In this document: positions 35,838 to 36,685 of the stretch, in pieces | Layout: every line of letters starts with the position of its first letter | How positions within the stretch are numbered: position 1 is the stretch's first letter | NCBI RefSeq assembly: GCF_000427685.1 | Contig: NZ_KE386573.1 | Span: 1,348,938-1,412,937, forward strand | Reading direction: 5' to 3' | Length of the DNA stretch: 64,000 nt | DNA from: Haloplanus natans DSM 17983 | Lineage (GTDB): Archaea; Halobacteriota; Halobacteria; Halobacteriales; Haloferacaceae | Position numbers and translations under genes: made by a program | The notes under the pieces: model-generated | The model's input: only the letters and a program-made list of their open reading frames with translations | What the model was told of the DNA's origin: nothing | Database searches by the model: none

Positions 35838-36600
35838 TCACCGCTCGCTAGCGACGGCGTCGCAGTCGGCGGCTTCGGCGTTCGCCTCGCGTGTCGACCG
35901 GTGCGTCACGTCGCTTCGTGGATACGGAATCTCGATGTCCGCGTCCGCGAGGGTGTGGTAGATGGCGCGGTTGAGTTCGTGGCGGGCCCGTGCCGCCCGA
36001 GTCGGGCCGTTAACCCAACAGAGGAGTTCGTACTCCAGCGCCGAGTCGCCGAAGCGCCGGAACCGTATCCGCGGCTCGGGGACGTCGAGCACCAGCGACT
36101 CCGACAGCGCGATATCGACCAGCAGATCCTCGAACGCATCGATGTCGGTGCCGTAGGCGACGCCGATGGGGACGCGGACCCGCCGTCGCCGGCCCGGCGC
36201 CGACTCGTTGGTGACGCGGGTGGCGTTCAGGACGGAGTTGGGCACCGTGACGAGCACCTCGTCGCGGGTCAGCAGCGTCGTCGAGCGGACACCCACCTTC
36301 ACCACCGTCCCGGACTCGCCGGAGTCGAGGACGACGAAGTCGCCCGGTTTGTAGGTGTCGTCGAAGTAGAGGGCGATCCCGTCGTCGGACTATCCGACTG
36401 GCGGTCGAGCTTCGCTCGACGACCCCGAAGAAGTTGGCGACGGTGTCCTTGGCGGCGAAGCCGACGGCGATGCCGGCGATGCCCGCGCCCGCCAGCAGGG
36501 GTGACACGTCGTACTCCCAGAGTGAGAGGAGGACGGACTGCCGAAGGAGACGGCGAGGAGTCCGTCGAACACGGCTTCGAGAGGCGCCCGACGGCGATAA
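35838..36600 (-). pseudogene. mscS-type mechanosensitive channel gene, broken
   Basis: The pore helix and beta domain of an MscS channel are clear (LWEYDVSPLLAGAGIAGIAVGFAAKDTVANFFG, then GIALYFDDTYKPGDFVVLDSG...RSTTLLTRDEVLVTVPNSVL and a C-terminal domain to 35838), but two defects exist. A 43-nt insertion at 36381-36423 splits FFG from GIALYF and shifts the frame; deleting exactly 43 nt restores it. The N-terminal membrane segments are absent: homology stops near 36600, where a palindromic element begins. The C-terminal part alone could not form a channel. Confidence 0.85.
36381..36423. repeat. 43-nt double-hairpin insertion in mscS
   Basis: On the minus strand it reads as GTCGAGCGAAGCTCGAC (7-bp stem, GAA loop) followed after CGCCA by GTCGGATAGTCCGAC (6-bp stem, TAG loop), with the outer ends GTCGTCG/CGACGAC complementary to each other. 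Its removal regenerates an uninterrupted, canonical MscS sequence (FFG-GIALYF), so the boundaries are well defined; a short CCC at the join could be a target duplication. Confidence 0.8.
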
Positions 36601-36685
36601 CTATAGGCGTTATCGGAAGTTATCAGAGATTCTCGCCGGGACGGTCCGGCGAGAATCTATGGACAGTTACGATAACCCCTATATA
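36601..36685. repeat. 85-bp palindromic element, second subfamily
   Basis: CTATAGGCGTTATC at the left and GATAACCCCTATATA at the right are inverted repeats; the centre AGATTCTCGCCGG/CCGGCGAGAATCT is a perfect 13-bp stem around GACGGT. An inner GTTACGATAAC/GTTATCGGAAGTTATC region copies the TTGTAA-CTG layout of the main family. It terminates the mscS remnant. Confidence 0.75.

Follow-up and report, generated by a model that had tools for sequence, protein, structure and literature searches.

A 43-nucleotide (nt) insert in an mscS pseudogene of Haloplanus natans DSM 17983 is almost certainly one copy of a dispersed, non-autonomous mobile haloarchaeal DNA that belongs to a mobile coding palindromic family. 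The best overall explanation is, with high probability, that the insert represents a decayed copy of a dispersed coding mobile palindrome of about 45 nt. The stretch analyzed here, referred to as the window, comprises 64,000 nt (contig NZ_KE386573.1, positions 1,348,938 to 1,412,937). Movement has never been observed, and mobility is inferred from the presence or absence of the element at orthologous sites of different species.

The insert and its decayed host gene

The insert occupies positions 36381 to 36423 of the window and reads GTCGTCGGACTATCCGACTGGCGGTCGAGCTTCGCTCGACGAC in window letters. On the minus strand, which is the strand of mscS, it consists of the 5' end triplet GTC (36421 to 36423), hairpin 1 (GTCGAGC-GAA-GCTCGAC, 7 bp with a GAA loop, 36404 to 36420), the spacer CGCCA (NGCCA in the family, 36399 to 36403), hairpin 2 (GTCGGA-TAG-TCCGAC, 6 bp, 36384 to 36398), and the 3' end triplet GAC (36381 to 36383). 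Hairpin 1 is supported by the sequence, by a DNA fold, and by covarying pairs in the family, and the other parts were delimited in a family alignment (A2), in which hairpin 2 of the window copy lacks 2 nt at the loop relative to the family form GTCGGAC-GNA-GTCCGAC. Among 82 in-frame copies, 63 also end with the codon GAC. Both hairpins fold as single-stranded DNA (z −2.96). The first-pass annotation of the window had proposed a 43-nt insertion of two perfect hairpins with GAA and TAG loops at this position, which is confirmed here with stems of 7 bp and 6 bp. Strict parsimony places the 43 nt at 36382 to 36424; the phase of the other family members favors 36381 to 36423, and the preceding codon would then have changed from GGC to GGG.

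The host gene (35838 to 36590, minus strand) was recognized as an mscS pseudogene by Pfam MS_channel domains in the joined translation and by alignment with its orthologs. A protein search of 12 genomes of the genus, with the joined mscS translation as the query, revealed close mscS orthologs in three other genomes (L003, L004, and L005; 86 to 91% identity), and DNA alignment showed that all three lack the 43 nt, with TTCTTCGG running uninterrupted into CGGGATC. Removal of the 43 nt brings FFG and GIALYF into one frame. The earlier claim that removal restores the reading frame therefore holds locally but not over the whole length, since alignment with the three orthologs also revealed that mscS has a 4-nt deletion near 36540 and that unrelated DNA has replaced its N-terminal part; the gene is thus a pseudogene in spite of the locally restored frame. 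Measured from the ends of the element, both flanks of the window copy are in frame 0, which indicates that the 2 missing nt, and not the insertion, break the frame. The insertion into mscS itself was probably frame-neutral, and the window copy is probably a decayed 43-nt version of a 45-nt in-frame element, with the frameshift being secondary. The element would have entered mscS as 45 nt while the gene was still readable, and afterwards mscS would have decayed through its N-terminal loss and 4-nt deletion and the element would have lost 2 nt.

No second near copy of the 43-mer was found in the window, no near copy arose in 100 shuffles, and BLAST at an E value of ≤0.001 detected no second match to the 86-nt stretch in the genome of H. 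natans. A plasmid search with the mscS stretch returned only a related mscS and apparent chance matches of GC-rich DNA. The replaced 5' region of mscS contains a separate palindromic element of about 80 nt (36603 to 36682), with ends near TATAGGCGTTATCG...CGATAACCCCTATA and a long central hairpin (DNA fold z −6.1). Counted over both strands, this element has 26 matches in the genome of H. natans, and 9 of the 12 genomes of the genus contain matches; it looks like a miniature inverted-repeat transposable element (MITE).

A dispersed family with conserved structure and reading frame

A 61-nt query around the insert was searched against 170 genomes of the taxonomic family. The matches spanned the element only (query positions 10 to 53, best E value 5e-7), and many of those extracted, several of them from Halolamina, were plainly the same object with changed stems. 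Among 38 extracted BLAST hits, 15 were combined with the window copy in alignment A2 (45 columns), on which the covariance model R1 is based; L082 (an ortholog of L040) and L084, L085, L053, L081, and L093 (length variants or divergent) were left out, as were others regarded as chance. R1 matched 158 of the 170 genomes of the taxonomic family at an E value of ≤0.01. At ≤1e-6, it matched 234 of the 392 order genomes searched, representing 66 of 95 genera. At the looser threshold of ≤0.1, eight genomes yielded 18 to 109 matches each, with 28 in the genome of H. natans; these counts are based on at most 150 scored candidates per genome and include some places matched on both strands. In 424 kb of haloarchaeal DNA (the window and 18 stretches), the highest scores were 61.9 bits for the window copy, which is itself in the seed alignment of R1, then 36.2 and 25.9 bits, and the window copy is the sole match above 26 bits within the window. 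In 115 kb of bacterial DNA, the top match reached 23.1 bits. An exact-pattern scan of a contig collection found seven stretches, five haloarchaeal and two bacterial; the bacterial ones (L300 and L304) are chance matches, having no second hairpin and R1 scores of ≤23.1 bits. No Rfam family matched any of six loci up to an E value of 0.5.

The standard unit in the 16-copy alignment is 45 nt long, begins with GTC, and ends with GAC; between these triplets lie two 7-bp stems, each with a 3-nt loop, separated by NGCCA. The structure is conserved in the family with compensatory pairing. In total, 98.7% of 223 stem cells are paired, and for 8 of the 14 pairs at least one copy has both partners replaced (26 cells in all). 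The observed pairing, the counts of both-side changes, and the covariation score were each unmatched in 500 shuffles, and slid controls were 18 to 43% paired. The number of further pair types did not exceed that of the shuffles (481 of 500 as high). The loops of hairpin 1 are GAA in 13 copies, GGA in 2, and GGG in 1, and those of hairpin 2 are GCA in 11, GGA in 2, and GTC in 2, with TAG in the decayed window copy. Trinucleotide loops of the type C-GNA-G form very stable DNA mini-hairpins.

The coding frame of the flanks was called for 117 copies from the GC content at the codon positions, with parameters set by us; the content of Asp and Glu had been tried as a frame caller and was replaced because it did not separate sense from antisense. 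Since R1 was built on the 45-nt subtype to which the search with the mscS copy had led, the frame statistics cover that subtype and not longer variants. Every called flank was in sense frame 0 in 83 of the 117 copies (59 with both flanks called and 24 with one), 25 copies had no frame call, and 9 were other or mixed, namely, a0/? (twice) and a0/a0, ?/a0, s0/a0, s0/s1, ?/s1, s2/?, and s2/s0 (once each). After 14 duplicate loci were dropped, 71 of 103 were in frame 0, 23 were uncalled, and 9 were other or mixed. The 83 in-frame copies represent 69 host-site clusters, and 76 of them have the standard length of 45 nt, 6 have 51 nt, and 1, the window copy, has 43 nt; for none of the six 49-nt copies was a coding frame called. 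A frame could be called at seven of nine loci that belong to other families of the order (five s0/s0, one s0/?, and one ?/s0); of the other two, L305 was open through the element but uncalled, and L313 has a stop in the element frame. Comparison of element and flank frames thus shows that in genes, with few exceptions, the element is apparently read in one of the six frames and adds about 15 residues. The predicted peptide, approximately VDERSSSASQTQSDD, is rich in Ser, Asp, and Glu, with the consensus V-D/A-E-R-S-S-S/A-A/G-S-R/Q-T-Q-S-D/G-D, and the 63 site representatives retain E at position 3 in 58 cases, T at position 11 in 59, and S at position 13 in 59.

Ten further copies have an empty ortholog, which was sought with flank-only proteins and then aligned as DNA, and all ten are exact 45-nt in-frame insertions. 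They are located in an MFS transporter (L101 filled, L173 empty), L103 (L167 empty), L104 (filled in G062, occupied by a divergent copy in G065, and empty in five genomes), UvrC (L110 and L140 filled, five of seven Halolamina genomes empty), L132 (L169 empty), an ABC transporter (L143 filled, five empty), a creatininase (L148 filled, six empty), L133 (L179 empty), and, in the genome of H. natans, tryptophanyl-tRNA synthetase (TrpRS; L138 filled, all 11 other genomes of the genus empty) and a pyridoxal phosphate (PLP) decarboxylase (L146 filled, L195 empty). Five of these sites (L101, L103, L132, L133, and L146) rest on a single aligned ortholog each, and nine other orthologs of the PLP decarboxylase have a shorter loop at the site and do not settle it. 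None of the ten requires a target duplication of more than a few ambiguous bases. Pfam searches with ten host fragments matched MFS, UvrC RNase H, DHO dehydrogenase, tRNA synthetase 1b (E value 9e-5), creatininase, SelR (MsrB), HATPase_c, iPGM, CBS, and Orn/DAP decarboxylase; the labels TrpRS and ABC transporter are our own reading of the sequences.

The first-pass annotation had taken the insert for a cleanly bounded miniature element, to be recognized by presence or absence in orthologous genes, and this is borne out by the three empty mscS orthologs and the ten additional copies. Both observations that it had named as speaking against such an element, a lack of other copies and orthologous mscS genes carrying the same bases, are contradicted. 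Its suggestion that the element is active or recently active is not demonstrable for the window copy; what the data show is that the family is patchily present within genera.

Relation to known repeats

Judged by published descriptions, the family is a haloarchaeal analogue of the Rickettsia palindromic elements (RPEs), distinguished from its relatives as a new, unusually short, double-hairpinned family. According to the consulted portions of the reports, RPEs and the Wolbachia protein-coding repeats are palindromes inserted in frame into unrelated conserved genes, and also located in intergenic regions, which are translated and have shorter orthologs (PMC2229807, PMC3733652, and PMC2996958). 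The present family likewise consists of dispersed hairpin repeats inserted in frame into unrelated genes whose orthologs lack them, and its inserts would be translated as well. However, compared by description with RPEs, for which a length of 105 to 146 bp is given in the consulted part of PMC2229807, it is only 45 nt long, has two separate short hairpins, is read in nearly one frame, prefers a GAC-GTC target, and is archaeal and order-wide. Coding palindromes of Methanocaldococcus jannaschii are likewise archaeal, palindromic, and in frame, as the passages of PMC2229807 and PMC2996958 that cite them describe, but they are from a different archaeal class and are likened here through those descriptions.

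The CGTC-tagged REPs, which include RPE-4 and RPE-6, are described in the consulted portion of PMC3733652 as having a (C)GTC tag, CCA by the stem, dimers, some intragenic copies, and no dedicated transposase; they have 8- to 9-bp stems, 4- to 5-nt loops, and A/T at the first two stem positions and occur in five bacterial phyla. A text search of that article for haloarchaea gave no match. The present family resembles them in its short hairpins, and its GTC start and GCCA spacer may correspond to their tag and CCA, but it differs in its 7-bp stems, 3-nt loops, and mostly G-C outer pairs, so that its stems and loops are outside the REP range. Its start is GTC in 31 of 82 copies and GTT in 14 of 82, and the preceding base is C in 69 of 82 but is part of the flank. 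Closer in host range are the PATEs and SMRs of Haloquadratum walsbyi, mobile repeats that lack transposases and target duplications, with near-terminal palindromes in PATEs and terminal inverted repeats in the approximately 110-bp SMR-A (PMC3119063, in part). The present family is also haloarchaeal, transposase-free, and without target duplication, and it differs, in a comparison by description, in its in-frame coding property, of which there is none in the consulted passages of PMC3119063. No description of the family was found in the literature searched, the scope of which excluded most subscription journals and supplementary files, and the consulted parts of PMC12306157 and PMC3404096 contain no mention of a double-hairpin family.

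In-frame selfish palindromes are known chiefly from intracellular bacteria and one methanogen. The present family occurs in most of the haloarchaeal genera tested, with hosts including UvrC, TrpRS, MsrB, iPGM, and histidine kinases, and would make movement and protein tolerance testable in organisms that are easy to grow and transform. It also holds a warning for annotators, since 15-residue Ser/Asp-rich insertions in haloarchaeal proteins may represent mobile DNA and not salt adaptation.

Target sites, arrays, and movement

The target was analyzed with the 82 in-frame copies whose length is divisible by three. Directly before the insert, 45 of the 82 copies have the codon GAC and 15 have GGC (background, 8.7% and 4.7%); directly after it, 23 have GTC, 21 have GCC, and 10 have GGC (background of GTC and GCC, 5.1% and 5.7%), which shows that GAC-GTC-like sites are preferred for insertion. 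Of 144 RRCGYC sites in coding flanks, 111 are in phase 0, as are 8 of 8 GACGTC sites, and the preference for such sites would go far to explain why the insertions respect codon boundaries. In addition, the start of a copy resembles its own downstream flank. In a permutation test of 64 copies, performed after 14 duplicate loci had been dropped, positions 1, 2, and 5 were each matched in 0 of 2,000 permutations, whereas positions 3, 4, and 6 to 16 were not significant singly; the likeness of the element end to the upstream flank was unconvincing (best single P value, 0.012). The likeness of start and downstream flank extends over 7 nt in MsrB (L264), and in iPGM of H. natans (L256, 1517 to 1561) the first 16 nt, including the loop, are repeated directly downstream, which gives hairpin 1 the look of a copy of target sequence. 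Such likeness may reflect a short target duplication, a homology-based choice of target, or later conversion.

Inserts are located in the N-box of histidine kinases in H. natans (L266, 1501 to 1545), G066 (L228, 1546 to 1590), and apparently G006 (L068), and the start of the insert again resembles the downstream flank there. The ATP-binding N-box of histidine kinases is seemingly a preferred site, with AVEHG/SVEHG repeated on both sides (also in L356, 346 to 396). Six of 127 plasmid records with a related kinase were examined; a Halolamina plasmid kinase carries an apparent tandem insert (29.1 bits), the site is empty in a Halobacterium salinarum plasmid kinase, and the other four have loops of differing length and sequence with no convincing R1 match. 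Units also abut exactly in arrays, with three in G066 (L252) and several each in L208, L209, L222, L223, L241, L242, and L257, for which no coding frame was called. Two adjoining units in L124 are open in the element frame (flank calls, a0/? and ?/?). L208 and L209 are related stretches of about 600 nt on one G065 contig (near 493 kb and 544 kb) that are 89% identical, lie in opposite orientations, and contain several units.

The sites receiving insertions would be those that resemble the unit's own end-to-end junction (GAC-GTCGA). In haloarchaea, GAC-GTC sites would mostly fall at Asp-Val codon boundaries, and a unit of a multiple of three would usually be frame-neutral there. Insertions in other frames and orientations, whose peptides are basic or interrupted, would be purged; the sense orientation probably results from selection, since the antisense peptide is arginine-rich. 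The folded single strand would be the likely substrate, moved by an enzyme supplied in trans, and we hold movement as single-stranded DNA by an HUH-type or other such enzyme only tentatively, at slightly less than an even chance. A mobilizing enzyme that has since been lost or that is supplied by a plasmid or virus is possible. Some other route of movement is somewhat unlikely, and insertion guided by short homology without a dedicated transposase is rather unlikely. The likeness of start and downstream flank, the 16 nt repeated in iPGM, the kinase N-boxes, and the exactly abutting arrays are the grounds for a more specific form of the latter, in which a class-wide, transposase-less coding element finds its site by short homology, with its end-to-end junction pairing with similar target sequence, the GAC/GTC codon bias phases the insertion to codon boundaries, and the 5' arm of hairpin 1 takes up target sequence; as a whole, this form is doubtful.

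Weak hairpin pairs are common in GC-rich haloarchaeal DNA (many matches of 13 to 25 bits), and a template switch or fold-back during replication might have made a quasi-palindrome once in mscS, but such a local mutation is next to impossible to reconcile with similar copies that have covarying stems at dozens of unrelated sites in many genera. That translation bypasses the 43 nt, or that they are spliced out of the RNA, has an equally negligible probability: the length is not divisible by three, and the flanks share one frame once the insert is taken away, but mscS is broken elsewhere too, and the family form of 45 nt is readable, so that skipping is unneeded. Spread by selection, as a functional peptide tag, an RNA structure, or a regulatory site, would account for the conserved E3, T11, and S13 and for sites that are common across families, apparently including one oxidoreductase site in L108, L109, L305, and L308. 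However, this selected function is very unlikely, since the host proteins are unrelated, most orthologs examined lack the insert, and arrays of units also occur where no coding flank is callable; the peptide is conserved because the DNA stems are conserved.

A further rival is a terminal-only derivative of IS200/IS605 (a PATE). Its hairpins would be the left-end and right-end palindromes remaining after an IS605-type element had lost its core, and TnpA, a Y1 HUH transposase, would move it in trans as single-stranded DNA. The family has the near-terminal (subterminal) palindromes of PATEs, is tiny and too short for a transposase, and has no target duplication beyond a few ambiguous bases, no long terminal repeats, and no terminal inverted repeats, its end triplets GTC and GAC forming a 3-nt inverted pair only and its start being partly similar to the downstream flank. 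Haloquadratum PATEs share these features, and terminal-only forms of 52 bp have been reported (PMC3119063, in the part consulted). Y1_Tnp matches were also found in 9 of 14 genomes tested, among them G000, G065, G066, and G067, and number five in the genome of H. natans. However, Y1_Tnp had no match in G074, G075, G061, G041, and G029 of these 14 genomes, and no TnpB was found in G075 in spite of 66 R1 matches there among the candidates scored; the many copies in G074, G075, and G061 indicate that a Y1 transposase is not universal among the carriers. A longer relative with a transposase, which the first-pass annotation had thought worth seeking, did not emerge either, as no R1 match exceeded 27.9 bits at 30 Y1 transposase (tnpA) loci. 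Derivation from IS200/IS605 is, on balance, rather unlikely. At 30 tnpB loci, two R1 matches exceeded 40 bits (47.2 and 41.4), neither of which was shown to be an IS end, and a weaker pair (25.0 bits) was found in two related TnpB genes; we read the matches at tnpB loci as insertions or inherited variants. Two related TnpB genes of H. natans (L324, 1394 to 1450, and L334, 1746 to 1802) contain in their C-terminal part, in antisense orientation, a 57-nt double-hairpin variant whose other strand reads as an acidic peptide.
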